A stretch of 64,000 nucleotides of DNA from Adhaeribacter swui (GTDB lineage Bacteria; Bacteroidota; Bacteroidia; Cytophagales; Hymenobacteraceae), in the NCBI RefSeq assembly GCF_014217805.1, contig NZ_CP055156.1:930001-994000 (forward strand), in the 5' to 3' direction. A program made the position numbers and the translations under genes. Positions 3,592-51,836 of this stretch are shown one piece after another (positions within the stretch are counted from its first letter, which is position 1; each line of letters opens with the position of its first letter). Below the pieces are notes generated by a model. It did not search any database. It was not told the DNA's origin and saw only the letters and a program-made list of their open reading frames with translations.

Positions 3592-6500
3592 ATGACTTCA
3601 ACTTTACCCCGACAGCGTACCCCTTTTCGGCTTTTCTTTTTTTTACCGGCAAGTTGGCGCTTGTTCTTGTTTTTATTTTTTTTTAAAATTTTTGCTTTTT
3701 CGGTAGTTGCCCAACCTGCTCTGGTAAAAAAATGGGATAAAACTTTAGGCGGCACCGCCGACGATTACCTTAGCGTTACGGTACCTACCCCCGATGGTGG
3801 CTATTTACTGGGCGGCACTTCGTATTCTACGAAAAGCGGCGACAAAACCCACGAAAACTACGGCGAAGCCGATTGCCACCATAACACTTGTTACTTTACT
3901 TCCGAAGATTACTGGGTAATAAAAATTGATGCCGACGGGCAAAAAGTATGGGATAAAACCTACGGCGGCCGGGGCAGCGATCAGTTAAAAGCCATGGTAG
4001 CCTTACCAGAAGGCGGTTACCTGTTGGGCGGCATATCGTACTCCAACACCAGCGGCGACAAAAGCGCCAACAGCAAAGGATACAGTGATTACTGGGTAAT
4101 TAAAATAGATTTATACGGTAATAAAATCTGGGACCGCACCTATGGCGGCTCCAGCGCCGACGATTTAGTTAGTATTTTACCTACGCCGGATGGCGGCTTT
4201 CTGCTGGGTGGCACTTCTTTTTCGGGCATAGAAGGCGATAAAACTGACATGAACCGCGGCGAAAACACCTCGGACTACTGGCTTGTAAAAATAGATAGGA
4301 ACGGCACCAAGCAATGGGACCAAACCTACGGTGGCAGCAACACCGATTATCTTACTTTTTTAGCAGCTACGCCGGATGATCAAATTTTGGTAGGTGGCTC
4401 TTCTAACTCGCGGGTGAGTGCCGACAAAACCGCGCCCAATAAACAAACTGCCCTGGCCAAAGCCGAAAATACCTACAATGGCTGGATTTTAAAAATAGAC
4501 CAACGCGGCCATAAACAGTGGGATAAAACCTACGGTTTCTCTAACCGCGATAATCACCTGGCGGCCATTTATTACCAACCGGAAACCAAAAAATTTATTA
4601 TCGGCGGCTCGGCGGCTGGTTTATCGCTTACCGATTACGACTACGATTACCTGGTAGCCGAAATTGATGCCACCGGCAACGAAACCTGGCTTACTACTTA
4701 CGGCGGAGAAAGTAACGATTTTTTGAGTACCATTGCTCCGGCGCCTAATGGCAATTTTATCATTGGCGGCACTTCCACCTCTAAAATTAGTAAGAACAAA
4801 ACCGAAAAAAGCCGGGGCTACGAAGATTTCTGGCTCGTGCGCTTAGCGAATACCCAAAAAGTATGGGACAAAACCGTAGGCAGCCATAGTTCCGATAACT
4901 TGCGCTCGGTGCTTTTTACAGCCGATGGCGGCTATTTACTGAGCGGAACTTCCATTTCGGGCCGGGGGCCGGATAAAAGCGAAAGTAGCCGGGGTGGCCG
5001 GGATTTTTGGGTTGCTAAATGGCAAGATGCGGCTCCGCCTGCTCAAGAAATTGCCACCTTCCGGTACGGCAACTCTAAAAACGATAATTTCACCCAAATA
5101 ATTAAGACCGGCGACAACGGATACCTGCTCGGTGGCTATTCCGAACCGGCTAACTCCAATGAGCCAACAATTCCGGGTCGCGGCGGCCTGGACTACTGGG
5201 TAGTAAAAACCGATGCCTCGGGTAAAGAAGAATGGCGTAAGCGCTTTGGCGGCCCTGAAAATGATTACCTCAACAGCATCATGCAAACCCCGGATGGGGG
5301 TTATTTGCTGGGTGGCAGTTCCGAATCGGGGGTCGGCGGCGATAAATCGGGCGTTAGCCGGGGGGACCGGGATTTTTGGGTAATAAAAATTAGTCGAAAC
5401 GGTACTAAAGAATGGGACCGTACCTTTGGCGGCAGCGGCTTCGAAGATTTGCGGCAGATCCGGCAATTTGCGTCGGGCAACTATGTATTGGGTGGCTATA
5501 GCATTTCGTCGGCCGGCGACGATAAAAGCGAAGACAGCCGAGGCGGTTACGACTATTGGGTTGTAATCCTGAATCCGCGGGGCAATAAAATTGCGGACTA
5601 CAGTTTCGGCGGAAATGCTCACGATTACCTGCAGGATGTACTGGTAAACCCCGACGGCAGTTTACTCCTGGGAGGCACGTCGGTGAGCGGATTAAGCGGC
5701 GATAAAAGCCAACTGAGCCAGGGCGGCGCCGATTACTGGATTGTTAAAGTAAGTCCGGATGGGCAGCGGCTTTGGGATAAGTGTTACGGCAGCTCCGAGC
5801 AAGACCACTTATCTGCCCTGGCGGCTATGGGCGATACTTACATACTGGCGGGTTACAGCAACTCGCCGGTTAAAGGCAACAAAACGCAAAACAGCCAAGG
5901 TGGCAACGATTTTTGGGTAATAAAAATTAACAATCAAGGCCAGCAATTATGGGATAAAACCTACGGTGGTAACGGCCCCGATGAATTACGGTCGATAGCC
6001 GTAACTACTACCGGCAGTTTACTTTTGGGCGGCACCTCAGCCTCGGAAACAGGCGGCGACAAAAGCGAGAACAGCCAGGGAAGCACCGATTATTGGCTGA
6101 TTAAAACCAACAGCGCCGGCGCCAAACAATGGGACAAACGCTTTGGCGGCAGCGGCCCAGACGAACTGCGTACCATCGTACAAGCCAACGACGATAGCTA
6201 CCTGCTCGCAGGCCGCTCCAATTCCGAAATCAGCGGCGACCAAACCCAGCCTTCCCTGGGCCTTACGGATTACTGGCTCGTAAAAGTACCCGAATCGGTT
6301 ATTACCTCGCCCCGCTACTTCATTAAACCAAATTCTGCCACTTTAAGCACTAACGAGGTTAAGTTACTCCAGGCTTTTCCCAACCCCTTTCAGGACAAAG
6401 TAACCATCCGTTTTAGCTTACCCATAACCCAAACCGCAACCCTGCGGGTACTCGACAGCCAGGGAAATGAAGTTACCAGCTTATACCAAGCAGAAGCCCA

Positions 6501-6618: not shown

Positions 6619-6639
6619 ATTTTTTAAATTTTTCTGTTT

Positions 6640-6690
6640 CTACAAATACAAAGCCGATCCAAGCATCTTGGGTCGGCTTTGTATTTGTAG
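6640..6690 (+). terminator. Intrinsic terminator-like hairpin after array gene 1
   Basis: A 24-bp stem (6640-6663 with 6667-6690) with a single G-U pair and a CAT loop. It lies 22 bp after the stop and is preceded by a T-rich stretch. A diverged copy follows the gene ending at 23215. Confidence 0.85.
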
Positions 6691-6734
6691 ATCATCTGAA
6701 TATTTAACAATAAAATAGCAGAATACAGAAATAA

Positions 6735-6782
6735 ATACCAAAGTTTAGGTATTGCACCCTGCCATCAAACCCTTTACCTTTA
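6735..6782 (+). promoter_or_regulatory. Bacteroidota-type promoter with palindromic operator-like element
   Basis: The palindrome ATACCAAAGTTTAGGTAT (6735-6752; ATACC/GGTAT half-sites) overlaps a -33-like TTG (6752-6754). Exactly 20 bp later comes TACCTTTA (6775-6782), close to the Bacteroidota -7 consensus TAnnTTTG. The same arrangement recurs at 19842, 23332 and 28213. Confidence 0.75.
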
Positions 6783-6832
6783 ACTGCTTTTCACCTAAGT
6801 AAGATCCAGCTAAATTAAATTACTTTAATGCT

Positions 6833-8302
6833 ATGAAAAAAAAACCAACCCATTTACCCTGGCGTTTAGGGCTTGAAGTAAGAAAGAGCGGCGCCTTACA
6901 CCTTTGCGCTCTACTGATTATTATTTTAAATTTTATGCCATTAGCCCACGCCCAAAATGTAATATGGGACAAAACCCTGGGTGGGAATCGCTCCGATAAA
7001 TTAAATTCTTTTCAGTTAACCCGCGATGGGGGGTACATTCTGGCAGGTACTTCCAACTCCGATCAATCTGGCGATAAATCTCAAGGAACTAAAGGCGGTA
7101 AAGATGTTCATGATGTTCCACTGGATGATTATTGGGTAATAAAGCTTAATAAAGATGGCAGCAAAGCCTGGGATAAAACTTTCGGCGGAACCGGTTCCGA
7201 AATTTCGACTGCCGTACAGCAGACCACTGATGGGGGCTATATCCTTGGCGGCTGGTCAAATTCAGGCAAATCCGGAGATAAAAGCGAAGATCCCAGAGGC
7301 ATAAAAGAGTCTGATTTATATCCTTATGATTATTGGGTTATAAAGCTAAGCGAGGATGGCAGTAAAGCTTGGGATAAAACTTTTGGCGGAACCGATTCCG
7401 AGTATTTAACTTCTATCCAGCAAACCAGTGATGGAGGCTACATTCTCGGTGGCAGTTCCGCATCGGGTATAAGTGGCGACAAATCGCAAGCCAATAGAAG
7501 CAATACAAGAGGCAGCACTGATTATTGGGTTATAAAGCTAAACGCCGATGGTAGTAAAGCTTGGGATAAGACCATTGGTGGCTCCGACAACGATAATTTA
7601 GCATCTGTACAACAAACTTCCGATGGCGGTTATATCTTAAGTGGGAGTTCTAGCTCTAGCAAAAGTGGTGAAAAATCAGAGAATAACCGAGAAGATTACA
7701 ATGGGTTTTCACATACTAATGATTATTGGGTAGTAAAACTAAATGCTAATGGCAACAAAGTTTGGGACAAAACTTTTGGCGGAGATGCAAACGATAGGTT
7801 AAACAGTATCCAGCAAACCCAAGATGGCGGTTACATTCTAGGTGGCTTTTCTCAATCTGGTAAAAGCGGGGATAAAACAGATACCAAACGCGACAACTCC
7901 TATACTTACTCTGATTATTGGGTAGTTAAAATTGACAAGAATGGTACTAAAAAATGGGATACTACGGTTGGCGGAAATTTCGGAGACGATTTACAAGCAC
8001 TATTACAAACCCCTACCGGAGAGTTTATTTTGGCAGGCAATTCTGCTTCTAATATTAGTGGTGAGAAATCGGAAAATAATCACGGCGATGAATATACCAA
8101 GGATTATTGGATAGTAAAACTGAGCTCAACCGGTAAATACATTTACGATAAATCCTTTGGAGGGAACGGAGATGAAACACTTACCAGTTTGCAACAAACT
8201 TCGGAAGGAGTTTTGGTGCTGGGGGGGTTTCTGAATCAGATAAAAACGGGGATAAATCGGAAATTAATAAAGGTCGTAGATTTACCAGTGACTTTTGGAT
8301 AG
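6833..8302 (+). CDS. Array gene 2, 5' fragment: signal peptide and first propeller (frameshifted)
   Basis: 489 codons. Signal peptide 1-40 (A40|Q41) is nearly identical to that of the gene at 23429. Seven repeats follow, from VIWDKTLGG to YIYDKSFGG. In the seventh, the frame is lost at a run of seven G (8221-8227): the protein reads LGG then FLNQIKTG and stops at 8302. Adding one G restores LGGVSESDKNGDKSE and the rest of the blade, joining smoothly to the downstream frame. The sister gene at 15015 has LGGVSES at the equivalent site, which fixes where the shift lies. As written, this fragment lacks the Ig module, two propellers and the T9SS tail, so it could not be sorted by T9SS. It is either phase-variable, decayed, or a homopolymer sequencing error. 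Confidence 0.85.
   Translation: MKKKPTHLPWRLGLEVRKSGALHLCALLIIILNFMPLAHAQNVIWDKTLGGNRSDKLNSFQLTRDGGYILAGTSNSDQSGDKSQGTKGGKDVHDVPLDDYWVIKLNKDGSKAWDKTFGGTGSEISTAVQQTTDGGYILGGWSNSGKSGDKSEDPRGIKESDLYPYDYWVIKLSEDGSKAWDKTFGGTDSEYLTSIQQTSDGGYILGGSSASGISGDKSQANRSNTRGSTDYWVIKLNADGSKAWDKTIGGSDNDNLASVQQTSDGGYILSGSSSSSKSGEKSENNREDYNGFSHTNDYWVVKLNANGNKVWDKTFGGDANDRLNSIQQTQDGGYILGGFSQSGKSGDKTDTKRDNSYTYSDYWVVKIDKNGTKKWDTTVGGNFGDDLQALLQTPTGEFILAGNSASNISGEKSENNHGDEYTKDYWIVKLSSTGKYIYDKSFGGNGDETLTSLQQTSEGVLVLGGFLNQIKTGINRKLIKVVDLPVTFG
8221..8227 (+). other. G7 homopolymer at the frameshift point
   Basis: Seven consecutive G. Eight G would give a continuous frame of about 1580 codons from 6833 to 11574, matching the 7+Ig+7+7 architecture of the paralogues. 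The downstream frame is open from 8228 without a stop. Confidence 0.8.
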
Positions 8303-8472
8303 TAAAGGTTGAGGATAATATAATAAAAAATCAAACCATTACTTTCGAGCCCATCTATAACCAGGTAGTAGGCAGCCCGGCTATTTCGCTGCAGGCCAAA
8401 GCCAGCTCCGGCTTACCCATTACCTACGAAGTACTGTCGGGCCCAGCCACGGTTAAAGATAACCAACTAACC

Positions 8473-11400
8473 GTGTTTGCCGCTGGTCCGGTTCGTATAG
8501 CGGCTTACCAGAAAGGCAATGCAACGTATAAACCCGCCGAACAAACCCAAAGCTTTCTGGTTACCCTGTCGGGCAAACAAAACGACTGGGCTTTTGGCGG
8601 CAATCAGGCCGATACTTTAGCTACCATGATCCCTACCCCCGACGGCGGTTACTTACTGGGCGGCACGTCGCGCTCCGGTAAATCCGGTGATAAAAGCCAG
8701 GCTAGCCAAGGCAGTTCCGATTACTGGATTTCTAAAATCAGCAAAACCGGCCAGAAACAATGGGATAAAACGTTTGGCGGCAGCCAGACCGATCAACTCT
8801 CGGCGCTGGTAGCCACTCCCGATGGCGGCTACTTACTCGGGGGTACTTCTACTTCCGGCAAAACCGGCGACAAAAGCCAGGCCAGTAAAGGCAGCTCCGA
8901 TTATTGGCTGGTAAAAATTGACGGAGCAGGCAATAAGCTCTGGGATAAAACTTACGGTGGCAGCGGCAAAGACGAGTTAGCGGCTATACTGGTAACGAAA
9001 CAGGGCTATTTACTCGGCGGCAGTTCCGCTTCGGGTACTTCATCCGACAAGAGCCAAAGCAGTAAAGGTAAAACCGATTACTGGATAATAGAAATTGATG
9101 CGACCGGTAACAAACTCTGGGATAAAACCTACGGGGGCAGCCAGGACGATCAACTAGCTGCATTGCTGGCCAGCCCCGAAGGTGGTTTTCTGGTGGGCGG
9201 CAGTTCGGCATCAGGTACCTCCGGCGATAAAAGCCAATCTGCCCGGGCTAATGTCGATTACTGGGTAATCCGGATAGATGAACAAGGCACCAAGCTCTGG
9301 GACAAAACCTACGGCGGTAAAAAAGGCATCCGCTTTAACGATGCCTGGAATTATGAAGCGGGCTATTCTTACCTCAGCACACTTACGGCGACTCCCGATG
9401 GTGGCTACCTGGTGGCGGGTTCTTCCAGCGCTTCCAAAGGCTTCGAGAAATCCGAAGACACCCACGATCATTTTTATGAAGTGGCCGATTACTGGATTTT
9501 AAAAATAAACAAGCAGGGCGAAAAAATTTGGGACAATGCTTACGGCAGTGTTACCACCTTTGCCGAAATAGATTTTGGCCGCGAGATTGGCAGTTCGCAA
9601 CTAAGTGCGGTAGTACCCTTACCCGAAGGCGGCTATCTACTGGCGGGTACTTCAGAGGCATACCGCGGTCGGGATAAAAGTGAAGAGAACCGCCGGAATA
9701 CGTTAAAAATTAGTCCCGAATACCCGAACACTACCGAACAGCAATATGCGCTTTGGAACGACTACTGGATTATCAAAATAGACGAACAGGGTAAAAAGCT
9801 GGAAGACCGTACGCTGGGCTCTGCTCAGAACAATACATTAGTAGCCGCCGCCAGAACCCCGGAAGGCAACTTTATGCTGGCCGGCTATTCCGAATCTGGC
9901 ACTAACAATGATAAAAGCTCAGCTAGTAAGGGTGCTACCGATTACTGGCTCGTGCAAGTAGCTGGCCGTAAAGTACCAGAACCTACTACCGCCGCTTGGG
10001 ATATGCTATTTGGCGACGAGAAAAACGATAACTTTACCAGTGTAATTAAAACCACTGACGGTGGTTACTTAGCCGCTGGCTACTCTAAATCTACTTACGT
10101 TAGAGACGGAGAGACATTTTTTCAAGGAAAGTTTAACTACTGGATTGTAAAAACAGACAAAAGAGGGCACAAATTGTGGGACAAAACTTACGGAGGGCAG
10201 GCCGATGATTACCTGAACAGCGTTATCCAAACCCAGGACGGTGGCTACCTGCTGGGTGGTTCTTCTTTGTCGGGTAAAAGTGGCAATAAATCGCAGGATA
10301 GCCGCGGCGACCGCGATTATTGGATCATCAAAGTAGATGCCCAAGGCAATAAACAATGGGACAAAACCTACGGCGGCAGCAAATACGACGAACTTAAAAA
10401 AGTAGTACAGTTAGCTTCGGGCGAGTACGTGTTGGGCGGCTACAGCAACTCCCCTACCAGCGGCGACAAAACCCAGGGCAGCCAAGGCAACACAGATTAT
10501 TGGGTCGTAAAAATTTCAAAAAACGGCACCAAACTCTGGGATAAGCGCTACGGGGGTACTAACCACGATAAACTGGGTAGCTTTACCGAAACCAGCGATG
10601 GCGGGTTTTTACTGGTAGGGGGTTCCCTGTCGGGCAAAAGCGGTGATAAAAGCCAGGCTAATCCAACTAACCTTGGGGGAAATACCGACTATTGGGTGGT
10701 AAAAACCGATCAGCACGGCAACCTGCTCTGGGACAAAACTTATGGTAGCTACGAAAACGATGATGCATACTCCGTAGCCCGCAGTGGCAACGATTTTTAC
10801 ATTTCGGGTACGAGTTATTCTGATAAAGGTGGAAGCAAAAGCCAAAATAGCCGGGGCGGTAAAGATTACTGGGCAATTAAGATAGATGCCCAAGGCAATC
10901 AACTCTGGGATAAAACCTTTGGGGGCAGCCAAAATGATGAGTTAAGCGCCAGTTCCGCCAGTAACGATGGCGGATTAGTTTTAGCTGGTTCTTCTTATTC
11001 CGGCAACAGTGGCGACAAAAGCCAGGACAGCCGGGGCAGTAGCGACTACTGGATAGTAAAAGTAGATGCTGCCGGCAAGCAGGTGTACGATAAACGCTTT
11101 GGTGGCAATGGTACTGATGAACTGCGCGCTGTACTGCATACCAATGATGGCGGCTTACTGCTGGGCGGTACCTCCGACTCAAACAGCAGTGGCGAACATA
11201 GCCAAAGCAGGTATGGTGGCACCGATTACTGGCTCGTGAAAGTAGCCCCGGAAACGTTACCGATGGTAGCAACTACCCAGGGAAATTCAGCTATTGCTGC
11301 AGAAGGTAAGCATTTAACTTCATTACTGGCTTACCCCAACCCATTCAGCGATAAACTAACCATACGATTTACTTTACCCGAAACCCAATCGGTTACCCTG

Positions 11401-11574
11401 CGGGTACTCGATAGCCAAGGCAAAGCAGTAACTACTTTGTTCCAACAAGAAGCCCAAGCCCAGCAGCCGTACGAGGTAGAGTGGCAAGCCAGTAAGCAAG
11501 AAGCCGGTTTTTATTTGCTGCAACTAGTAACATCTACGGAACAAAAGACTATAAAATTACTCTTGAGAAAGTAG
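8473..11574 (+). CDS. Array gene 2, 3' fragment: rest of Ig module, two propellers and T9SS tail
   Basis: The first usable start is a GTG at 8473, but it lies inside the Ig-like module. The same frame is open back to the G7 run, where it encodes the end of blade 7 and the start of the Ig module (TITFEPIYNQVVGSP ... KASSGLPITYEV). This is therefore the continuation of the 6833 gene rather than an independent one, and it has no signal peptide of its own. Two seven-repeat propellers follow (from NDWAFGG at about 8576, and from AAWDMLFG at about 9991). Blades 5 and 6 of the first have long insertions, as in the genes at 15015 and 23429. The T9SS tail starts near 11326 (LLAYPNPF) and ends KLLLRK. 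Confidence 0.85.
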   Translation: MFAAGPVRIAAYQKGNATYKPAEQTQSFLVTLSGKQNDWAFGGNQADTLATMIPTPDGGYLLGGTSRSGKSGDKSQASQGSSDYWISKISKTGQKQWDKTFGGSQTDQLSALVATPDGGYLLGGTSTSGKTGDKSQASKGSSDYWLVKIDGAGNKLWDKTYGGSGKDELAAILVTKQGYLLGGSSASGTSSDKSQSSKGKTDYWIIEIDATGNKLWDKTYGGSQDDQLAALLASPEGGFLVGGSSASGTSGDKSQSARANVDYWVIRIDEQGTKLWDKTYGGKKGIRFNDAWNYEAGYSYLSTLTATPDGGYLVAGSSSASKGFEKSEDTHDHFYEVADYWILKINKQGEKIWDNAYGSVTTFAEIDFGREIGSSQLSAVVPLPEGGYLLAGTSEAYRGRDKSEENRRNTLKISPEYPNTTEQQYALWNDYWIIKIDEQGKKLEDRTLGSAQNNTLVAAARTPEGNFMLAGYSESGTNNDKSSASKGATDYWLVQVAGRKVPEPTTAAWDMLFGDEKNDNFTSVIKTTDGGYLAAGYSKSTYVRDGETFFQGKFNYWIVKTDKRGHKLWDKTYGGQADDYLNSVIQTQDGGYLLGGSSLSGKSGNKSQDSRGDRDYWIIKVDAQGNKQWDKTYGGSKYDELKKVVQLASGEYVLGGYSNSPTSGDKTQGSQGNTDYWVVKISKNGTKLWDKRYGGTNHDKLGSFTETSDGGFLLVGGSLSGKSGDKSQANPTNLGGNTDYWVVKTDQHGNLLWDKTYGSYENDDAYSVARSGNDFYISGTSYSDKGGSKSQNSRGGKDYWAIKIDAQGNQLWDKTFGGSQNDELSASSASNDGGLVLAGSSYSGNSGDKSQDSRGSSDYWIVKVDAAGKQVYDKRFGGNGTDELRAVLHTNDGGLLLGGTSDSNSSGEHSQSRYGGTDYWLVKVAPETLPMVATTQGNSAIAAEGKHLTSLLAYPNPFSDKLTIRFTLPETQSVTLRVLDSQGKAVTTLFQQEAQAQQPYEVEWQASKQEAGFYLLQLVTSTEQKTIKLLLRK

Positions 11575-11837: not shown

Positions 11838-14800
11838 ATGAAAAATTTTTCTACTCTCATTAAAAAAATACCATCTACCAATTATCGGTGGTGCGCCTCA
11901 ACGGCAGTTTTAATTTTTGGCCTTAGTTTAGTGGGTCCGGCAGTAGCCCAAAATATTCAACTAGACAAAACTATTGGCAGCTATTCTACTGACCAGTTAG
12001 CCTCTGCGCAGCAAACGCCCGATGGAGGCTATATTCTGGGGGGCACTACTGAATTTGGCAAAGGGGGCGACAAAACCGAAGAAGGCGAAAACGATTCGCG
12101 TTTTGCTACCGATTACTGGATTGTAAAGTTAAAGGCCAATGGTACCAAAGAATGGGACAAAGTTTATAGCGGCAATGCCGAAGACGCTGTAAAAAAAGTG
12201 CTTCCTACTCCCGATGGCGGTTATATGGTGTTTGGCAATTCTAATTCAGGCATTAGCCGCGATAAATCCGGGCCCAGCAAAGGCGGCCAGGATTTTTGGA
12301 TCATAAAACTGCGTGCTGATGGCTCAAAAGCCTGGGATAAAACCATTGGCGGCAAATATTTTGATAAATTAGAAGCCGTAGCAACTACCCAGGATGGCGG
12401 CTATATTTTAGGCGCAACTTCTGTTTCGGGAATTGGGAAAGATAAAACCGAAACCCGCCGCGGCCGGGATGACTACTGGATAGTAAAGCTAAGCGCCGAT
12501 GGCACTAAAGAATGGGACAAAACCATTGGCGGCCCCGGCGACGACCGGCTAAGCACCATCCAGCAAACCACCGATGGGGGTTATATGGTAGGCGGCACTT
12601 CCAGTTCCAGGATTGGCAATGATAAAACGTCGGCCAGCCACGGCAAAGATGATTATTGGGTAGTAAAGCTAGATGCAACAGGCGCTAAAGTCTGGGATAA
12701 ATCTTTTGGGGGCTCCGATAATGATTATTTAGCCGCGTTGCAGCAAACCCCCGATGGTAGTTTTATACTGGGGGGCAGTTCCAGATCCAATATTAGCGGC
12801 AATAAAAGCGAAAAAAACAAATCCGCGCTAAGCGAAAATTACTGGTTCCCGATTTCTGACTATTGGGTGGTAAAAATTGATGCAACGGGTAAAATAATCT
12901 GGGACAAAACCATTGGCGGGAATAATAAAGATCAATTAAAAGCTTTGCAGGTAACGCCAGATCAAAACATTCTTCTGGGAGGCACTTCTGATTCGCAGTT
13001 TGGGGAAGACAAATCAGAAGATCCCAAAGGAAAATTTATCTCCAGTGATTTTACCGTTGATGATTACTGGATTGTAAAACTACGCCCCGATGGAAGCAAA
13101 ATGTGGGACGTAACCATTGGCGGCAATTCAGAAGATGATCTGATTTCGATGGAGCCGGCCCTGGATGGAAGCTATATTCTGGGCGGTAATTCGTACTCCA
13201 GTATCAGCGATGATAAAACGGAGGTCAGAAGAGGCGGTCAGGATTACTGGATCGTGAAGATGGAAAATAAAAATTTAGATAGTGCCGCCTGGAATATGGC
13301 TTACGGGGGCTTAGGTAGCGATGCCTTTACTACGGCTATCCAAACCCGCGACAGCGGCTATCTGTCTGGTGGCTATTCTACCTCCGACAGCAGCTATTAT
13401 AAATCCCAAAACAGCCGGGGCCAAAACGATTTCTGGATTGTGAAGAGCAACCAATATGGCCAAAAAATCTGGGATAAGCGGTATGGCGGCAGCGATAATG
13501 ATTACCTCAGCCGCGTTATTCAAACCCAGGATGGCGGCTACTTACTGGGCGGAAGTTCCTTCTCTGGCAAGGGCGGCGATAAAACCCAGTCCAGCCAGGG
13601 TGATCGCGATTATTGGGTGATAAAAGTAGATGCGCAAGGCAATAAACAATGGGATAAACGCTTTGGCGGCACCGGCGACGACGAACTGGTAAAAGTAGTC
13701 CAATTAGCCTCGGGAGATTACGTATTAGGCGGCCACAGCAACTCCCCCACCAGTGGGGATAAAACCCAGGGGAGCCAAGGCAAAACCGACTACTGGTTAA
13801 TTAAAATTTCAAAAAACGGCATTAAGCTCTGGGACAAACGCTATGGAGGCACGGCTATAGAAAATTTAGGCAGTTTTACCGAAACGGCCAACGGTGGGTT
13901 TTTACTGGCGGGCACCTCGCTATCGGGCCAGGGCCACGACAAAAGTGCTAGTAGCCGGGGTGGCAGCGATTACTGGGTAGTACAAACCGACCAGGCTGGC
14001 AACCTACTCTGGGATAAAACCTACGGGGGAAGCGGGAACGACAAAGCTTACTCCGTAGGCCGAAGTGGTAATTCTTTCTTTCTGGCCGGCACCAGTAATT
14101 CCGGGGCAAACGGTGATAAAACCCAAAGTAGCCGGGGCGGCAAAGATTTTTGGCTGATTAAAATAAGTAGCACTGGCGATAAACTCTGGGACAAACGCTA
14201 CGGGGGCACGGCCAACGACGAACTCAGTGCCAGTTCTATCACCACCGATGGCGGTATTGCTTTAGCGGGCAAGTCTAATTCCGGGGCAGGCGCCGATAAA
14301 ACGCAGAGCAACCAGGGCCGTAGCGATTACTGGCTGGTGCAAGTAGATGCCAATGGTAACCTACAGTGGGATCAGCGTTTTGGTGGCAGCCGCTCGGATG
14401 AGCTGCGCGTGGTTACCCAAACCCAGGATGGCGGTTTTCTGTTAGGGGGCCAGTCCGATTCGGGCAGGAGCGGCGACAAAAATCAATCCCTGATCGGATT
14501 TTTGGGCACCGATTACTGGCTGGTTAAAGTTGCGCCCCGTACCGCCGCCGCTTCGCAAAACACCCCGGAAACTACCGTGGAACAGGCAACCGTTGTAATT
14601 AAAAATTTTACTGCTTATCCCAATCCTTTCCGCGACCGGGTAACGGTAAGTTTTACTTTACCCCAAACCCAAGCCATAACGGTGCGTGTACTTGATAGCC
14701 AAGGCCACCCGGTAGCCACTCTGTTTCAAGAGCAAGCCCAAGCCCACCAAAAGTATGAAGTACAATGGCAAGCCGGTAACCAGAAAGCGGGCATGTATTT

Positions 14801-19707: not shown

Positions 19708-19741
19708 AAGCCAGATAGCTAATAAATAAGCTATCCGGCTT
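19708..19741 (+). terminator. Intrinsic terminator-like hairpin after array gene 4
   Basis: A 13-bp stem with one mismatch (19708-19720 with 19729-19741), an 8-nt loop, and a T-rich stretch after it. It lies 16 bp after the stop. Confidence 0.7.
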
Positions 19742-38897: not shown

Positions 38898-39318
38898 AAA
38901 GTATATCTGAGTATTGTAGCCATTCCATAGCCCAATAAAGCTATTACTCATTACTTGATTAGCAGGTAAATTGTAAAATTTTAAAAATTTTATCATCTGT
39001 ATCTGCCGCATCTACTTTACTTTCTTCGCTGTTTATTTTAAAAATTTACTTAGATATGCTGCAGCCATTTGAAAATAAAATCTGATTTATTTTAATAAAT
39101 AGTAATTGCAGCAACAACTAGTCTGTAGCATGTTCCAACTGAGCATAAGCAGCATTTTTCACTTAAATCAAGTTATTAATACGAAACTGGTTTCAGTTTA
39201 TTAATGGCAGGCACACCAATGCCTCACTACTTTCTGCTGTAAAACTTTACAAAAAAGTTTTTTGCCTTTACAACAGTTAAAATTTACTCATTTAGCATTT
39301 TACTTAAACCCAAATAGT
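38898..39318. other. Intergenic region before array gene 10
   Basis: 421 bp, AT-rich, with no convincing ORF or terminator hairpin. Part of it could encode a 19-residue N-terminal extension of the next gene, but the conserved signal-peptide length argues that it is leader. No ATACC palindrome. Confidence 0.4.
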
Positions 39319-42324: not shown

Positions 42325-42463
42325 CTAAAAAGTTGTATAAACAGAACACTTCTTTCTTGCTTTTATACCACAGGGCTCTTTGCAGTATGGCAAACGTAGC
42401 TGGCTCTTTCTGCAGTCAAATTTTTAATTTTTAAATATCACCTGTTTGAAAACTTATACAATT

Positions 42464-45400
42464 ATGAAAATCATAGATTATAATTTCCGTCTAAGTCAAT
42501 GGCCTCGGGTAGAATTGCCCGGATGGCGCTCTGTAGGGGTCATTTTATTACTTAATTGGTGCTTCATAGCCACCGGCTTAGCTCAAAATAAAATATGGGA
42601 CAAAACCATTGGTGGCAGTTACGATGACATTTTCCAATCACTTCGGCACACAAAAGATGGCGGCTATATTTTAGGCGGGTATTCTTATTCTTATAAAAGC
42701 GGGGATAAATCAGAAAATAGTAAAGGCGGCTATGATTATTGGCTGGTAAAAACGCGTGCCGATGGCACCAAAGAATGGGATAAAACCATTGGCGGGAATA
42801 GTGATGACTATTTCCGCTCTGGCCAGGAAACTAGTGATGGTGGCTATATTTTAGGTGGGTATTCTTATTCTGGTAAAAGCAGTGATAAATCGGGAAACAG
42901 CAAAGGTGGCTTAGATTATTGGATAGTAAAGCTTAATTCTAAAGGTGATAAAGTTTGGGATAAAACCATCGGAGGTAATAATGATGACGTATTTCAATCT
43001 TTATTGCAAACTAAAGATGGTGGCTATATTTTATTTGGCTATTCCTCTTCTGGCCTTAGCGGCGATAAATCGCAGGCATCCAACGGTAATTATGATTATT
43101 GGGTAGTAAAGTTAAAGGCCGATGGCAGTAAAGAGTGGGATAGAACCTATGGGGGCAATAACCAGGATATAGCTTTTTCCATTCAACAGACCAGCAACGG
43201 AGGGTATGTCTTGGCTGGTTATTCTGACTCTAACATTAGTGGCGATAAATCTCAAGATGGTAAAGGTAGTGAAGATTACTGGGTTATTAAAATAAAGGCC
43301 AATGGCAGTAAAGAATGGGACAGAACTTTTGGGGGCAACAGTCAGGATGCTTTAGCTTCGGTAAAACAAACCAGCGATGGTGGTTATATATTAGGTGGTT
43401 CCTCTTATTCCGGAGTCAGCGGTGATAAAACACAATCTTCTAGAGGCAATAATGATTATTGGGTGGTTAAGTTAAAGGCCGATGGTACCAAAGAATGGGA
43501 TAGAACTATTGGCGGCAATAGTGATGATAATTTAAGTTCGGTGCAACAAACAAATGATGGCACTTACATTCTAGGCGGATCTTCTTATTCAGGTATTAGC
43601 GGTAACAAAACGCACTCTTCTAAAGGTGGTAACGACTACTGGATTGTAAAATTAAATACTAACGGTTCTTACGCCTGGGATAAAACCATTGGCGGTAATA
43701 GTGATGATTACTTAACCTACCTGCAACAAACCAATGATGGTAATTATATTATGGGCGGCTATTCTTATTCAAATAAGAGTGGCGATAAATCGCAGCCTAA
43801 TAAAAATAGCTGGGATTATTGGATCGTGAAGGTAGATAATAGCGGAACGAACCTGAATCAATTAATTTCCTTTGCACCTTTTCTTTATAAAGATTTGGAT
43901 GATCCTCCAATAGCCCTTTCGGCAACTACTAGTTCAGGCCTGCCTGTCACCTTTACCGTTGAATCAGGTCCGGCTACTATCAGTAATGGAAATATGCTTA
44001 CATTAACGGGGGTAGGTACCGTTACGATAAAAGCGGCCCAACCAGGCAATACTATTTACCTGCCTGTTTCAACTACCCGCTCTTTTGTGGTAGAACCAGC
44101 TTCCAAAATAAAAGAACAATGGAATAGAACCATTGGTGGCAATTCAACGGATCAGTTAACCTCTATCCAGAAAACCAGCGATGGCGGTTATATTGTAGGC
44201 GGAAGTTCCAGTTCAGGAAAATCCAGCGACAAGTCACAAGCCAGTAAAGGCGGCCTCGATTATTGGATTGTAAAGCTAAAAGCCGATGGTACGAAAGAAT
44301 GGGATAAAACTTTTGGGGGCAATGGGAATGATAATTTGACTTCGGTGCAACAGACGAGTGATGGGGGCTATATTCTGGGCGGCTATTCTTCATCCGGGAA
44401 AAGTGGCGATAAATCGCAAGCCCGTAAAGGCAGCTTGGATTACTGGATTGTAAAGGTAAAGACCAATGGTACCAAAGAATGGGATAAAACCCTAGGGGGA
44501 CGCGACCCGGATTGGTTGACTTCGGTGCAACAAACAAGTGATGGGGGTTATATTCTGGGCGGTTATTCAGAATCCGGCATTGGGGCAGATAAAACCGAGG
44601 ACTATCAAGGACTTACTGACTTTTGGGTGATAAAGTTAAGAGCCGATGGAGGTAAAGACTGGGATAAAACCATTGGAGGCATGTATGAAGATGTTTTAAG
44701 TTCGATCCATCAAACGAGCGATGGCGGCTATATTTTGGGCGGTTATTCTTTATCTGGGAAAAGTGGCGATAAATCGCAGGCCCGTATTGGAAACAATGAT
44801 TTCTGGATAGTAAAGCTAAAAGCCGATGGCAGCAAGGATTGGGATAAAACCTTGGGCGGCACCGATGAAGATTATTTATCATCCCTGGAGCAGACAAGTG
44901 ATGGGGGTTACATTCTGGGGGGGTATTCCTGGTCTAGCAGGAGCGGCGATAAAACACAAGCTTCTAAAGGTGGTTATGATTATTGGGTAGTAAAATTAAA
45001 TGCCAATGGAGCCAAGACTTGGGATAAAACTTTAGGTGGAAATGAAAGTGAAGCTTTAACGGTGGTACACCAAACTAGTGATGGCGGTTATATCTTAGGT
45101 GGTAATTCCTTTTCGGCTATATCCGGTGATAAAACCCAAATTCCAAGGGGTGCCCCTGACTACGACTTCTGGCTTATAAAACTAAAAGCCGACGGTACTA
45201 AAGCCTGGGATAAAACCCTGGGTGGTAATGATAATGACCTGTTATCCTCGATTCAACAGACCGGTGACGGGGAGTACCTGGTGGGCGGCACTTCAGAATC
45301 CGGATTTTTTGGTGATAAATCGGAATCCAGCAGAGGTGGCCAGGACTTTTGGTTGGTAAAGCTTAAAGAAGATGTAGACCTTAATACCCTTTGGGAGTAC

Positions 45401-46963
45401 CGTTTCGGGGGCAATGGAAAAGACAACTTAACTACTGTTATAAGAACCAACGATGGGGGCTATTTAGCCGGTGGGTATTCGGACACGGGTAGCAGCGGCG
45501 ACAAAAGCCAGAACAGCCAGGGCAAGAACGACTACTGGATCGTAAAAACGGATAAGAATGGGCAAAAACAATGGGAAAAACGTTACGGCGGCAGCCAGGA
45601 TGATTTCCTTAATCGGGTTTTGCAAACCCAGGATAATGGCTATTTACTGGCTGGTTCATCGCTTTCAAACAAAAGCGGTGATAAAACCGAAGAAAGCCAG
45701 GGCGACCGGGATTACTGGGTAGTAAAAGTAGATCCGCAGGGCAACAAAGAGTGGGATAAAACATTGGGTGGATCCGGGTATGATGAACTCCAGAAAGCCA
45801 TTCAGCTCTCTTCGGGCGAATACGCGTTAGGTGGCACCAGCAACTCTCCTATCAGTGGGGATAAAAGCCAGTCTGCGCAGGGCGGCACCGACTACTGGCT
45901 CGTTAAAATTTCAAAAACCGGCACCAAACTCTGGGATAAACGCTACGGCGGCAGCTTAAACGAAACCCTGGGCAGTTTTACGGCTACCAAAGATAATGGC
46001 TTTTTCCTGGGCGGCAGTTCCGAATCGGGGAATAATGGCGATAAAACCCAGGCCAGCCAGGGTGGCACCGATTATTGGGTCGTAAAAACAGACAAAGAGG
46101 GAAATGTGCTTTGGGAAAAAACCTATGGCGGCAACGGCACCGATGAAGCATATTCGGTAGGTCGTGGCCGGGGAAATCACTTGTTTATTGCGGGTACCAG
46201 TGATTCGGACCAATCAGGAGATAAAAGCCAGGCGAGCCAAGGGGGCAAAGATTACTGGTTAATTAAATTAGATGAAAAAGGCAACTTGCTCTGGGACCGA
46301 ACTTTCGGCGGCAGTAAAGACGATGAGCTAAGGGCCAGTACTTTCACCGACAAGGACCAGTATGTTTTAGGCGGCACCTCCTACTCGCCCGAAGGCGGTG
46401 ATAAAAGCCAGGGTAGCCAAGGCGATGGCGATTACTGGGTAGTGCAAGTAAATGAGGAAGGAAAGCAAATCGCAGACCAACGTTTTGGAGGCAGTGGCCT
46501 GGACGAACTCCGCAGCGTGTTCCAGACCAAAGATGGCGGGCTGCTGTTGGCCGGCCGGTCCAGCTCCGGCGTGAGCGGCGACAAGAGCCAGCCCAGCCAA
46601 GGCAGCACCGATTTCTGGCTCGTGAAAGTAGCTCCGCTCACCAGTACCTTAACCGCTAACCGGCAAGTGACCCGACCGATAACCGCAGCTTCAGAAACTG
46701 AATTGAAAGTACTAAGCGCTTTCCCGAACCCGGTTCAAGAACAACTAACCGTTCATTTTACCTTACCTCACACCCAGGTAGCCACGGTAAAGGTGTATAA
46801 CAGCCAGGGCAAAGTAGTCGCCGTTTTGTTCCAGAACCAGGCGCAAGCGCATCAACAATACCAGGTACAATGGCAGGCCCACAACCAGGCCGCAGGCATG
46901 TATTTTCTGCAACTACAAACCCCTACGAACCGCCACCAGCAAAAAATCCTGCTGACCCGGTAA
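42464..46963 (+). CDS. T9SS-secreted triple seven-bladed propeller protein with Ig-like module (array gene 11)
   Basis: 1499 residues from the ATG at 42464. A TTG at 42446 could add six residues, but 42464 gives A40|Q41 as in the relatives. Propeller 1 (about 43-461); Ig-like module (about 463-546; ISFAPFLYKDLDDPPIAL, SSGLPVTF); propeller 2 (about 550-972, from EQWNRTIGG); propeller 3 (about 974-1395, from TLWEYRFGG). Propellers 1 and 2 are unusually uniform (repeated GGNSDD and QQTSDGGYILGGYS phrases), which points to recent homogenisation. Propeller 2 lacks the blade-5/6 insertions of genes 2, 4 and 6. T9SS tail 1416-1499 with PNPV in place of the usual PNPF. A strong terminator follows. 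Confidence 0.9.
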   Translation: MKIIDYNFRLSQWPRVELPGWRSVGVILLLNWCFIATGLAQNKIWDKTIGGSYDDIFQSLRHTKDGGYILGGYSYSYKSGDKSENSKGGYDYWLVKTRADGTKEWDKTIGGNSDDYFRSGQETSDGGYILGGYSYSGKSSDKSGNSKGGLDYWIVKLNSKGDKVWDKTIGGNNDDVFQSLLQTKDGGYILFGYSSSGLSGDKSQASNGNYDYWVVKLKADGSKEWDRTYGGNNQDIAFSIQQTSNGGYVLAGYSDSNISGDKSQDGKGSEDYWVIKIKANGSKEWDRTFGGNSQDALASVKQTSDGGYILGGSSYSGVSGDKTQSSRGNNDYWVVKLKADGTKEWDRTIGGNSDDNLSSVQQTNDGTYILGGSSYSGISGNKTHSSKGGNDYWIVKLNTNGSYAWDKTIGGNSDDYLTYLQQTNDGNYIMGGYSYSNKSGDKSQPNKNSWDYWIVKVDNSGTNLNQLISFAPFLYKDLDDPPIALSATTSSGLPVTFTVESGPATISNGNMLTLTGVGTVTIKAAQPGNTIYLPVSTTRSFVVEPASKIKEQWNRTIGGNSTDQLTSIQKTSDGGYIVGGSSSSGKSSDKSQASKGGLDYWIVKLKADGTKEWDKTFGGNGNDNLTSVQQTSDGGYILGGYSSSGKSGDKSQARKGSLDYWIVKVKTNGTKEWDKTLGGRDPDWLTSVQQTSDGGYILGGYSESGIGADKTEDYQGLTDFWVIKLRADGGKDWDKTIGGMYEDVLSSIHQTSDGGYILGGYSLSGKSGDKSQARIGNNDFWIVKLKADGSKDWDKTLGGTDEDYLSSLEQTSDGGYILGGYSWSSRSGDKTQASKGGYDYWVVKLNANGAKTWDKTLGGNESEALTVVHQTSDGGYILGGNSFSAISGDKTQIPRGAPDYDFWLIKLKADGTKAWDKTLGGNDNDLLSSIQQTGDGEYLVGGTSESGFFGDKSESSRGGQDFWLVKLKEDVDLNTLWEYRFGGNGKDNLTTVIRTNDGGYLAGGYSDTGSSGDKSQNSQGKNDYWIVKTDKNGQKQWEKRYGGSQDDFLNRVLQTQDNGYLLAGSSLSNKSGDKTEESQGDRDYWVVKVDPQGNKEWDKTLGGSGYDELQKAIQLSSGEYALGGTSNSPISGDKSQSAQGGTDYWLVKISKTGTKLWDKRYGGSLNETLGSFTATKDNGFFLGGSSESGNNGDKTQASQGGTDYWVVKTDKEGNVLWEKTYGGNGTDEAYSVGRGRGNHLFIAGTSDSDQSGDKSQASQGGKDYWLIKLDEKGNLLWDRTFGGSKDDELRASTFTDKDQYVLGGTSYSPEGGDKSQGSQGDGDYWVVQVNEEGKQIADQRFGGSGLDELRSVFQTKDGGLLLAGRSSSGVSGDKSQPSQGSTDFWLVKVAPLTSTLTANRQVTRPITAASETELKVLSAFPNPVQEQLTVHFTLPHTQVATVKVYNSQGKVVAVLFQNQAQAHQQYQVQWQAHNQAAGMYFLQLQTPTNRHQQKILLTR

Positions 46964-46980: not shown

Positions 46981-47022
46981 AATAAAGCCGGATAGTAGCA
47001 ATGCTATCCGGCTTTATTTTTT
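46981..47022 (+). terminator. Intrinsic terminator after array gene 11
   Basis: A perfect 15-bp stem (46981-46995 with 47004-47018), an 8-nt loop and a T-tract. It lies 17 bp after the stop. The rest of the gap to 47289 is AT-rich and featureless. Confidence 0.9.
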
Positions 47023-47288: not shown

Positions 47289-50200
47289 ATGAAAACACTT
47301 TTACCCTGTTCCTACTCCATCTCACCTAATCAAAAAATAGTACCACTTTGGTACAGTATAGGCTTACTCTTATTTCTACAATTCTGGCTTTCAATTCCAA
47401 CATTGGCCCAGAATATACTTTGGGATAAAACTTATGGAGGCAATAAAAGTGAATTCTTCTCTGTTTTACAGCCTACCCACGATGGGGGATATATTGTGGG
47501 GGGAACTTCTGATTCCGGTGTCACCGGTGATAAGTCACATAAAAGTAGAGGTGGCGATGATTACTGGGTAATAAAACTAAATGCTGACGGCAGTAAGGTT
47601 TGGGATAAAACTTTTGGAGGGAACAGTTACGACTATCTGCATTCTATACAACAAACCCAGGATAGCGGATATATCCTGAGCGGTTTTTCAAACTCCGGTT
47701 TAAGCGGCGATAAATCAGAACCGAACAAAGGTGGCACCGATTATTGGGTTATAAAAATTACAGCGGATGGCACCAAAGAATGGGATAAAACCATTGGCAG
47801 TTGGCACGATGATGGTGGCTTAATTCAGGTACGGCAGACCCAGGATGGCGGTTATATTGTTGGAGGCTCTTCTTACTCCGGCATTGGTGGCGATAAAACG
47901 GAAAATAGTCGCGGCGACCGGGATTACTGGATAGTTAAGCTAAACTCCAATGGTGTGAAGCAATGGGATAAAACTTATGGAGGAAAAAGTGAAGAGTATT
48001 TAAACTCTCTGGAATTAACTACCGACGGCGGATTAATTTTAAGTGGTCACTCCACTTCTGGTCGAAGCGGCAACAAAACCCAGTCCGGCAAAGGTCAGGA
48101 TGATTACTGGATTATTAAAACCGACGGAAATGGCAGCATTATGTGGGATAAGACCATTGGTGGTAGTGGCAGCGAACGAGGAAAAAGCATCGTGCAACAG
48201 ACCCCGGATGGAGGGTACATTCTCGGTGCTAGTTCCAACTCTGACAAAAGCGGCGATAAAAGTGAAAACAACCGGGGTTGCGACGGCATAGGTAATTGCT
48301 CCTTTGATTATTGGGTATTAAAATTGAATGCTGACGGTAGCAAAGCTTGGGATAAAACCTACGGAGGAAATGCGGAGGATAATTTTGAAACCCTGCAACA
48401 AACTCCATCTGGCGATTTTATTTTGGGGGGCTGGTCATCCTCGAACAGTAACGGCGATAAAACCGAGCAGGTTATAGGCGCTACCGATTTCTGGGTAATA
48501 AAACTAAAGCCGGATGGCAGCAAAGTTTGGGATAAAACCATTGGTAGCAATGGTGGAGATGAATTACATTCTATCGGACAAACGCCAGATGGCAACTTTA
48601 TATTAGGCGGTAGTTCCTGGTCTAACAAAGGTGGTGATAAAAGCCACGACAACCACGGCTGCTCTGCCAGCAATTGTTTCGCTGATTTTTGGGTGGTAAA
48701 AATGGATAATAGCGGTAGAAACTTAGGTCAAATTATTACCTTCCTCACCATACCATACAAAACCCTTGGCGATGTTCCTTTCACGCTATCGGCAAAATCC
48801 AGTTCCGGTTTACCAGTCAGTTTCAGGGTAATTTCTGGTCCGGCGACACTAAAGGGCAACACCATTACTCTAACCGGTACAGGAACTGTTCAGGTAAAAG
48901 CATCAGCGCCCGGTAATAAAACGTATCTACCCGCCCAAGTTACCCAAAGCTTTGAAGTAGAAGAAGCAAGTCCAGTCAAAAAAGTTTGGGATAAAACTCT
49001 GGGTGGTAAACAAGATGAAAGATTATATACTGCCTACCAAACCCCGGATGGTGGTTTTATTTTAGGTGGTAATTCGGGATCAGGCAAAAGTGGGAATAAA
49101 TCAGATACTAAGCCAGGAGCCTGGATTGTAAAACTAAGGGCCGACGGCACCAAAGTATGGGATAAAGTCATTACCGGTGGGAGTTTGGCCGTGCTGCAAC
49201 CAACCCCGGACGGAGGCTACATTTTGGGTGGATCCACCGAATACAACAATAACAATTTTAGTAGCCCGGATTATTGGCTTGTAAAATTAAAAGCCGATGG
49301 TAACAAAGAATGGGAAAAAGCTTTAGGAGGCTATGATTGGGATGAGTTAACCGCGCTGCAGCAAACCCAGGACGGCGGCTATATTTTGGGCGGCTCTTCT
49401 TACTCGGGCAAAGGCCTGGATAAATCGGAGGTTAACCGCGGCGGCAGTGGCGAAGAAGGCGAACCCGTAAGCGATTACTGGGTAGTAAAAGTAAATGCCA
49501 CCGGTACCAAAGAATGGGATAAAACGTTAGGGGGCGATTACTACGATAATTTAACTTCGCTGCAACAAACTAGTGACGGCGGTTATATCGTGGGTGGCAG
49601 TTCTATGTCTGGTCTTAGCAGTGATAAATCCGAGTGGAATAAATCTTATGGATCAGATTACTGGATTGTAAAATTAAGACCTAATGGCAGCAAAGAATGG
49701 GATAAAACCATTGGCGGAAATAACGAAGACTATCTGGCTGTGGTTCAGCAAACACCGGATGGTGGCTATATTTTGGCCGGCAGTTCCAGTTCCGGTGTAG
49801 GGGGGGATAAATCCGAACCTATTAACGGAGACCCTGATGAAGCATACAACGATTTCTGGGTAGTAAAATTAGGCCCCAAAAGAAACAAAGAATGGGATAA
49901 AACCCTAGGTGGTGCGCAGGAAGATCACCTGAACACTTTACTGCAAATTCCTGATGGCAGTTTTATCCTCGGGGGTTCTTCTAGTTCAGTTAAAGGAGGT
50001 GATAAATCGCAAGTGGATCGTGGAGGTGGAGATATTTGGTTAATAAAAATCACCGCTCATGGTACTACAATCTGGGATAAAACATTGGGCGGTGATGAGG
50101 GAGATGGATTAACCGATCTGCAATCTACCCCGGAAGGCGGCTATATTCTGGGTGGCAATTCTACCTCTAACCGGAGCGGAGACAAATCGGGAAACAGAAT

Positions 50201-51836
50201 TGGCGAAAATGATTTTTGGATCATCAAGCTAAAGGAAGAGCCGCCCCTACAAGCTAGCTGGAACATGCGCTACGGGGGCAGTGGTAAAGATAACCTCACC
50301 ACAGCCATCAAAACTTCCGATGGCAGGTACTTATCGGGTGGTTACACCACTTCGGGGGTAAGCGGCGATAAAAACCAGACTAGCCAAGGCAAAAACGACT
50401 ACTGGATTGTGAAGAGTGACCAGAACGGCAAAAAGCTGTGGGATCAAAGCTACGGCGGAAGTCAGGATGACTATTTGAACAGTATAGTTCAAACAGCAGA
50501 TGGCGGCTATTTACTGGCTGGCTCTTCTGCTTCCTCCAGGAGTGGCGATAAAAGCCAGGAAAGCCGCGGCGACCAGGACTACTGGGTAGTAAAAGTTAAT
50601 GCTTCTGGAACCAAGCTCTGGGACAAACGCTATGGTGGCACGGGTACCGACGAGTTAACGCAAGTGCTGGTGCTGCCTTCGGGTTCCTTTATTTTGGCGG
50701 GTACCAGCAACTCCCCGGCTAGTGGCGATATCTCGCAGAACAGCTACGGTGGAAAAGACTACTGGGTACTTAAGATTAGCCGTTCGGGCAAGAAGATCTG
50801 GGATACGCGCCTGGGTGGCGCTCAGGATGAAACCTTAGAAGGAATCGTGTTTAACTCCGACGGCGGCTTTCTGGTGGGCGGAACTTCCGCTTCGGGCATC
50901 AGCGGCACAAAAACCCAGATGAGTCAGGGCAGCAGTGATTTCTGGGTGGTCCGTCTTACCGGCGAAGGCGAGCAGGTCTGGGATCAACGGTACGGTGGCA
51001 GCGGGGAAGACCAGCTCATGGCACTGGGTAGCACGAACACCAGCACGGGCAACTTTTTTCTGGCCGGCACCAGCACCTCGGGCAAGAGCGGGGACAAAAG
51101 CCAAAGCAGCCAGGACGGCAAAGACTACTGGCTTATCAAGATCAACCCCACGGGCAAGAAGATCTGGGATAAACGTTATGGCGGCAGCGCAGACGAAGAA
51201 CTACGTACGATTAGCATGACCCCGGAAGGCGGCTACTTGCTGGGAGGTAGTTCCAGCTCAGGGGTAAGTGGCGACAAGAGTCAGGTGAGCCAAGGAGGGA
51301 AAGACTACTGGCTGGTGAAAACCACAGCCACGGGAGTAAAAGAATGGGACCAGCGGTTTGGTGGCAGCGGTAACGAGGAACTGCGGAGTATGCTGCTCAC
51401 TAAAGAAGGCAACTACGTACTGGCCGGTAGGTCCGACTCGGGCGTGAGTGGCGACCGTACCCAACCCAGCCAAGGATCAACCGATTACTGGCTCGTCAAA
51501 GTAGCTCCCACAACTAGTTCCATCATTGCAGTCAGGGAAGAAAGTGCGATAGAAGAACCCGTAGCACCCACAGAATTAGTTCAATTCACAGCTTTTCCCA
51601 ATCCGTTTCAGAACCAAGTAACCGTAAGCTTTACCTTACCTGAAACACAATCCGCTACTTTGACGGTGTATGATAGTCAAGGCTATCCTGTAACTACCTT
51701 GTTCCAAGCAGAAGCTCAAGCTAACCAAACTTACCAGCTAGAATGGCAAGCCAATAAGCAAGAAGCCGGTTTGTATTTCCTACAACTGCAAACTCAGGCG
51801 GGACAACACACGCAAAAACTACTTTTACAAAAGTAA
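47289..51836 (+). CDS. T9SS-secreted triple seven-bladed propeller protein with Ig-like module (array gene 12)
   Basis: 1515 residues. Signal peptide A40|Q41. Propeller 1 (about 43-475) has seven repeats; the loops of blades 5 and 7 carry GCDGIGNC and GCSASNC immediately before D-Y/F-W, likely disulphide-closed. Ig-like module (about 478-560; ITFLTIPYKTLGDVPFTL, SSGLPVSF). Propeller 2 (about 564-985, from KVWDKTLGG) is YILGG-type like that of gene 11; blade 2 is short. Propeller 3 (about 990-1410, from ASWNMRYGG) is C-terminal type with the STNTSTGNFFLAG blade 5. T9SS tail 1432-1515 (FTAFPNPFQNQVTVSF ... KLLLQK). Last gene of the array. Confidence 0.9.
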   Translation: MKTLLPCSYSISPNQKIVPLWYSIGLLLFLQFWLSIPTLAQNILWDKTYGGNKSEFFSVLQPTHDGGYIVGGTSDSGVTGDKSHKSRGGDDYWVIKLNADGSKVWDKTFGGNSYDYLHSIQQTQDSGYILSGFSNSGLSGDKSEPNKGGTDYWVIKITADGTKEWDKTIGSWHDDGGLIQVRQTQDGGYIVGGSSYSGIGGDKTENSRGDRDYWIVKLNSNGVKQWDKTYGGKSEEYLNSLELTTDGGLILSGHSTSGRSGNKTQSGKGQDDYWIIKTDGNGSIMWDKTIGGSGSERGKSIVQQTPDGGYILGASSNSDKSGDKSENNRGCDGIGNCSFDYWVLKLNADGSKAWDKTYGGNAEDNFETLQQTPSGDFILGGWSSSNSNGDKTEQVIGATDFWVIKLKPDGSKVWDKTIGSNGGDELHSIGQTPDGNFILGGSSWSNKGGDKSHDNHGCSASNCFADFWVVKMDNSGRNLGQIITFLTIPYKTLGDVPFTLSAKSSSGLPVSFRVISGPATLKGNTITLTGTGTVQVKASAPGNKTYLPAQVTQSFEVEEASPVKKVWDKTLGGKQDERLYTAYQTPDGGFILGGNSGSGKSGNKSDTKPGAWIVKLRADGTKVWDKVITGGSLAVLQPTPDGGYILGGSTEYNNNNFSSPDYWLVKLKADGNKEWEKALGGYDWDELTALQQTQDGGYILGGSSYSGKGLDKSEVNRGGSGEEGEPVSDYWVVKVNATGTKEWDKTLGGDYYDNLTSLQQTSDGGYIVGGSSMSGLSSDKSEWNKSYGSDYWIVKLRPNGSKEWDKTIGGNNEDYLAVVQQTPDGGYILAGSSSSGVGGDKSEPINGDPDEAYNDFWVVKLGPKRNKEWDKTLGGAQEDHLNTLLQIPDGSFILGGSSSSVKGGDKSQVDRGGGDIWLIKITAHGTTIWDKTLGGDEGDGLTDLQSTPEGGYILGGNSTSNRSGDKSGNRIGENDFWIIKLKEEPPLQASWNMRYGGSGKDNLTTAIKTSDGRYLSGGYTTSGVSGDKNQTSQGKNDYWIVKSDQNGKKLWDQSYGGSQDDYLNSIVQTADGGYLLAGSSASSRSGDKSQESRGDQDYWVVKVNASGTKLWDKRYGGTGTDELTQVLVLPSGSFILAGTSNSPASGDISQNSYGGKDYWVLKISRSGKKIWDTRLGGAQDETLEGIVFNSDGGFLVGGTSASGISGTKTQMSQGSSDFWVVRLTGEGEQVWDQRYGGSGEDQLMALGSTNTSTGNFFLAGTSTSGKSGDKSQSSQDGKDYWLIKINPTGKKIWDKRYGGSADEELRTISMTPEGGYLLGGSSSSGVSGDKSQVSQGGKDYWLVKTTATGVKEWDQRFGGSGNEELRSMLLTKEGNYVLAGRSDSGVSGDRTQPSQGSTDYWLVKVAPTTSSIIAVREESAIEEPVAPTELVQFTAFPNPFQNQVTVSFTLPETQSATLTVYDSQGYPVTTLFQAEAQANQTYQLEWQANKQEAGLYFLQLQTQAGQHTQKLLLQK

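Follow-up and report, generated by a model that had tools for sequence, protein, structure and literature searches.

Positions 3592-51836 of the analysed window, a 64,000-nucleotide stretch of the Adhaeribacter swui genome (NZ_CP055156.1, positions 930,001 to 994,000), hold 13 open reading frames (ORFs), all on the + strand; in the ORF list the first begins at 3592 and the final one stops at 51836. Coding sequence accounts for 45,168 of the 48,245 bp. The spacers between members measure 121-509 bp, and no ORF-like stretch longer than 48 codons was found in them. Counting the ORFs at 6833-8302 and 8473-11574 as one, the array consists of twelve paralogous genes, which differ in size and encode one, two or three propellers (Table 1). 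The original prediction of twelve paralogues on one strand at 3592-51836, with no unrelated gene between them, is therefore borne out. It had also described all of them as giant, with an exported N-terminus and a type A tail of the type IX secretion system (T9SS); this holds for the tail in 12 of the 13 ORFs and for the signal in 12 of 13, and fails for the frameshifted gene, which, as assembled, does not have both in one frame. Rfam, tRNA and RNA-element searches gave no match. Beside the array, on the opposite strand (53341-55413), lies a gene for a T9SS-tailed Kelch propeller protein that is unrelated to the array family and 77% identical in the congener G006.

Table 1. Genes, palindromic elements and hairpins of the array (window coordinates).
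Feature	Position	Strand	Description
g1	3592..6618	+	signal peptide, two 7-bladed propellers, T9SS type A tail; 1008 aa; its G006 orthologue (70% aa) opens the syntenic array there
hairpin after g1	6639..6691	+	terminator-like, long; 25-bp stem, AAAGCCG..CGGCTTT core
palindromic element of g2	6736..6754	+	TACCTTT 39 bp after its start
g2+g3	6833..11574	+	single three-propeller gene, frameshift-split at G7 run near 8221 (ORFs 6833-8302, 8473-11574)
g4	11838..14858	+	two propellers, T9SS tail; 1006 aa
g5	15015..19691	+	three propellers, Ig-like spacer, T9SS tail; 1558 aa
hairpin after g5	19708..19741		terminator-like
palindromic element of g6	19843..19861	+	motif match
g6	19937..23215	+	two propellers, T9SS tail, divergent; 1092 aa; long branch in tree
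palindromic element of g7	23333..23351	+	one mismatch
g7	23429..28087	+	three propellers, T9SS tail; 1552 aa
hairpin after g7	28115..28143	+	terminator-like
palindromic element of g8	28214..28232	+	motif match
g8	28308..32906	+	three propellers, T9SS tail; 1532 aa
g9	33416..36439	+	two propellers, T9SS tail; 1007 aa
g10	36717..38897	+	GEVED domain, one propeller, T9SS tail; 726 aa
g11	39262..42324	+	two propellers, T9SS tail; likely start is a downstream ATG; in adjacent pair kept in G003, G005
g12	42446..46963	+	three propellers, T9SS tail; second member of the conserved g11-g12 pair
hairpin after g12	46981..47018	+	terminator-like
g13	47289..51836	+	three propellers, T9SS tail; 1515 aa; protein used for modelling
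hairpin after g13	51861..51891	+	terminator-like

The ORF at 6833-8302 encodes a signal and seven blades without a tail, and that at 8473-11574 encodes 14 blades and a tail without a signal. The reading frame is lost at a GGGGGGG run (8221-8227) and homology picks up in another frame, so that g2 and g3 represent one gene; the frameshift could be a sequencing slip or error, or a true mutation or slippage site. Two further runs of seven G lie in the array at 44917 and 49800, and G/C runs of at least six occur at 0.46 per kb in the array as compared to 0.08 per kb outside it. Poly-G phase variation was considered and not adopted, as frequent Gly-Gly codons are a likely cause of the runs and a number of the interruptions seen in relatives are simple stop codons.

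Propeller architecture and predicted export

A blade HMM counted approximately 7, 14 or 21-22 repeats per protein, each of about 60 aa. The long proteins are arranged as signal, propeller, Ig-like spacer, propeller, propeller and type A tail, and those of about 1000 aa carry two propellers. We modelled g13 with AlphaFold2 in two parts, residues 1-580 (pLDDT 83) and 554-1515 (pLDDT 87; pTM 0.55, so that domain orientation is unsure). These confident models contain seven four-stranded blades per propeller, the Ig-like domain and a beta-sandwich tail. The proposal that a single propeller family makes up the array is supported.

Among solved structures, the closest in fold is the cyanobacterial CylK propeller (20% identity; Z 47; 391 residues superposed with an rmsd of 1.9 A), which the family profile also matched by sequence with an E-value of 3e-36. 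Other solved propellers followed at Z of about 29-31, and bacterial PLL/PHL lectins of Photorhabdus were within the Foldseek top ten. Profile searches of the array proteins returned no sequence match to a known lectin or adhesin family, and the SBBP and delta-60 NCBIfam models matched below cut-off only. Among the structures in BFVD, similar propellers to model m6169a81676d5 were seen in giant-virus collagen-like proteins, and seven IMG/VR contigs (L131-L137) also encode similar propellers.

The similarity to CylK in sequence and fold raises the question of secreted enzymes, whose propellers would act catalytically on extracellular substrates. The acidic b-c loop position aligned to CylK Asp440/Glu374 is indeed conserved in the blade consensus; however, it is kept in nearly all blades, like a structural residue. 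The N-terminal domain of CylK, source of the essential Arg105, is absent, and few blade sites vary more than the one aligned to Tyr473. Because neither is retained, CylK-type catalysis is unlikely, and we regard the enzyme reading as a whole as highly improbable. In CylK, the active site sits where the top face of the propeller meets the N-terminal domain (PMC8916777). In the array family this same face carries the b-c loop and the beginning of the d-a loop, both among the blade positions that vary most. The idea that hypervariability is confined to the top face was dropped, since the bottom turns vary nearly as much; with variable positions on both faces, the variable loops of the models offer a weak argument for a ligand-binding face.

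The prediction of export by the type A route is supported at the sequence level. Pfam Por_Secre_tail scored above the gathering threshold in 12 of the 13 ORFs, the exception (6833-8302) missing it owing to the frameshift, and signal-peptide-like N-termini with a hydrophobic core and a cleavage-like ..AQ, called from hydropathy and inspection rather than SignalP, were found in 12 of 13. SprA, PorU and PorV are encoded in the same genome, all over cut-off. Described T9SS cargo includes adhesins, enzymes, toxins and metallophores (PMC10202324), and the known behaviour of type A cargo suggests that the array proteins would become attached to the cell surface (PMC10202324; PMC9143113).

Promoter module and probable transcription units

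Upstream of g2, g6, g7 and g8 we found AAATACCAAAGTTTAGGTATTGCA or a near copy, with the palindrome form TACCTAAnnTTAGGTA; the module stands ahead of only four of the twelve window genes. A TANNTT box lies exactly 39 bp past the palindrome start in 16 of the 22 family genes where the palindrome was recognised. The Bacteroidota promoter consists of TTTG / TANNTTTG, and the palindrome-TANNTT spacing and sequence fit it, the palindrome overlapping the upstream element. There are 31 exact palindrome sites in genomes G000, G003, G005 and G006, which represent four species, about 26 of them upstream of family genes (22 read directly and four inferred from match coordinates); the reversed control pattern gave 0-1 matches per genome. 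The module has been conserved although its surroundings have diverged. Since the palindrome is common to these promoters, the members concerned probably answer to one regulator. It is not exclusive to the array family, because the distant 9-Mb genome G016 has the same palindrome at many places near unrelated genes.

Upstream homology between some short-gap genes was rejected as a promoter, for the matching sequence belongs to the coding tail of the gene before. A sigma-70 scan, which is ill-suited to Bacteroidota, gave results near chance. Terminator-like hairpins follow g1, g5, g7, g12 and g13, so that several members look like single transcription units. The stems of these hairpins have a common AAGCCG..CGGCTT core.

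Related arrays, turnover and mosaicism

Genome-wide, the family numbers about 28-30 genes, with approximately 16 members scattered outside the array, one of them on the 117-kb contig C2. Named relatives are mostly Hymenobacteraceae; single-propeller relatives recur widely among Hymenobacteraceae and further Cytophagales, at times in groups of two to five. Three congeners carry arrays of 13-16 genes: G003, with one of 16 ORFs (80 kb) besides others of about 9, 7 and 4 genes, G005, with arrays of 13 and 9, and G006, with one of about 15. The congener-level distribution agrees with the view that the local repertoire is unusual, as no sampled genome from outside the genus had arrays this large. 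G004, in four contigs, gave no match, and G001 and G002 gave few, both being drafts in which loss and assembly collapse are indistinguishable. A published description of such multi-propeller arrays of 12-16 genes was not found in the open-access literature searched.

The window array and the G006 array are syntenic on both flanks. In G003, G005 and G006, where the upstream flank gene is 94-96% identical, array genes come directly after it, whereas they do not in G001, G002 and G004 (83-85% identical) or in G008. This upstream flank shared by four genomes, with the array absent there in others, indicates that the array belongs to a single sub-clade and occupies one ancestral site. An adjacent pair of the g11-g12 type is conserved in G003 and G005. 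Variant members that combine another N-terminal domain (MKKLY..LGKTTDLIATFR..) with one propeller were observed at L054:3754-7251 and L053:5333-8065 and in the G003 and G005 arrays. A Bacteroidia MAG (L126:18-13308) contains five head-to-tail genes for 886-aa single-propeller proteins, a small independent array.

The flanks are 73-98% identical to those of G006, and their proteins 74-98%, with dS of 0.5-1.4. The only array gene with a clear G006 orthologue is g1, with dN/dS of 0.13; the best matches of the others reach about 54-67%, with synonymous sites near saturation. Paralogues are approximately 50-60% identical to each other and saturated at synonymous sites. The family tree intermixes genomes and has lineage-specific groups, for example one of six G006 genes. 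In 48 of 54 genes with three propellers, these do not all find their closest relatives in one and the same gene, by a simple nearest-neighbour test that may be noisy with sequences this diverged. All four array genomes contain members broken by stops or frameshifts. The sprA gene of G006 (C1:3969468-3976525) is itself split across two frames, possibly by a sequencing frameshift, which advises caution over broken array genes in that assembly.

Tail identity is 63% within the window array as compared to 43% among scattered paralogues, and synonymous differences are slightly fewer in the array. The longest identical DNA tract between window paralogues is 56 bp; clearly long tracts were seen only in other arrays, reaching 296 bp in G005. 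For the window, cassette switching and recent gene conversion were rejected, considering the 56-bp maximum and tails only mildly more alike in the array. Antigenic switching by cassettes is likewise not supported: every intact gene carries a signal and a tail of its own, there are no silent donors, identical tracts are short and g1 has a low dN/dS. As judged from the sequences, the pattern fits birth-and-death with domain exchange and not recent cassette switching.

A broader proposal is a decoy, escape or self-recognition repertoire directed against phages, predators or competitors and renewed by recombination. Near-complete turnover among species at one fixed site, the pseudogenes and the mosaic propellers speak for it, and rapid turnover is also known from repetitive propellers linked to innate immunity or self-recognition (PMC9218822). 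Silent cassettes are absent, however, the 56-bp tracts and the constraint on the g1 orthologue pair count against it, and mean blade identity is 47% within and 46% between proteins, which argues against recent blade amplification; we consider it quite improbable. The broken copies in all array genomes might reflect a largely neutral expansion of unstable duplicates with little present function. This is very unlikely, as most members are intact across 1000-1500 codons with saturated synonymous sites, the g1 pair is under constraint and the promoter module has been kept.

A putative surface-binding repertoire and known systems

We propose, with a probability of roughly 0.55, that the array encodes a T9SS-displayed, partly co-regulated repertoire of surface-binding propellers, adhesin-like or lectin-like. 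By sequence and models, each intact protein consists of a Sec-type signal, one to three rigid CylK-like seven-bladed propellers arranged as beads and a type A sorting domain. By established T9SS knowledge, Sec export would be followed by tail-guided passage through SprA with PorV and by cleavage of the tail by PorU, and the protein would stay on the surface or be released. Exposed loops may bind outside ligands such as glycans, polymers or other cells, and several unlike paralogues may be retained to cover different targets. A subset is probably transcribed from the common palindrome-bearing promoter. The set appears to be renewed by tandem duplication and by loss through pseudogenes; paralogues exchange whole propeller segments and their 3' ends are mildly homogenised, under purifying selection where this was measurable. 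The lack of a sequence match to known lectins or adhesins, and the restriction of the promoter module to four window genes, weigh against the proposal.

The same proteins might instead build a structural coat or biofilm matrix, in which abundant, redundant multi-propeller rods form a surface layer or extracellular fibrils and the paralogues serve dose and differing growth conditions, not different ligands. Many copies of one architecture, with two to three rigid domains and a surface-anchoring tail, and a promoter module common to several members would suit this role, and a passage in PMC4175972 describes T9SS-deficient Tannerella forsythia mutants as being without the S-layer. A repeating lattice is nevertheless not favoured by paralogues only about 50-60% identical with synonymous saturation, nor by gene number and size that differ widely among species, and we judge the coat unlikely. 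A more specific form of recognition, namely a clade-specific co-regulated system with one regulator at the palindrome, propeller modules reshuffled between paralogues and a species-own repertoire for self/non-self, partner or prey, is a doubtful and tentative extension. The array shows that a bacterium can have many of its predicted surface proteins encoded in one fast-renewed locus, of a kind that short-read assemblies may miss. For work on how this propeller family, common in Cytophagales and otherwise unannotated, is regulated and what it does, the promoter module and the fixed flank are direct entry points.

Compared with known systems, the array proteins resemble T9SS type A cargo (PF18962 / TIGR04183) in the signal peptide, the C-terminal sorting domain and the presence of T9SS parts in the genome. 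They share the C-terminal seven-bladed propeller fold and blade motif of CylK (PDB 7fh6, 7ron); however, matches span CylK only from residue 214, leaving out the N-terminal Ca2+-binding domain with Arg105, and CylK is a biosynthetic enzyme whereas the array proteins are predicted to be secreted. SBBP / LipL53 propeller lipoproteins (NF047494) and delta-60 repeats (TIGR02608) have similar blades of about 60 aa and weak HMM similarity, yet the array proteins score 31-114 bits against the NF047494 cut-off of 400 bits and have a T9SS tail in place of the lipid anchor. Highly repetitive (WRAP-like) propellers are alike in turnover, broken copies and a possible recognition role; their median blade identity exceeds 60% (PMC9218822), as compared to means of 41-52% per complete array gene (0.60 in one partial gene), and no TIR/caspase or other effector partner was seen. 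The likeness to Photorhabdus PLL/PHL lectins, at 12-14% sequence identity, is by propeller fold alone. The parts of the array are of known kinds, while its size, fixed site with turnover, mosaic propellers and promoter module are together undescribed within the reach of our searches. What is new are the congener arrays of 13-16 genes at a shared flank, the turnover with propeller mosaicism and the palindromic promoter module.
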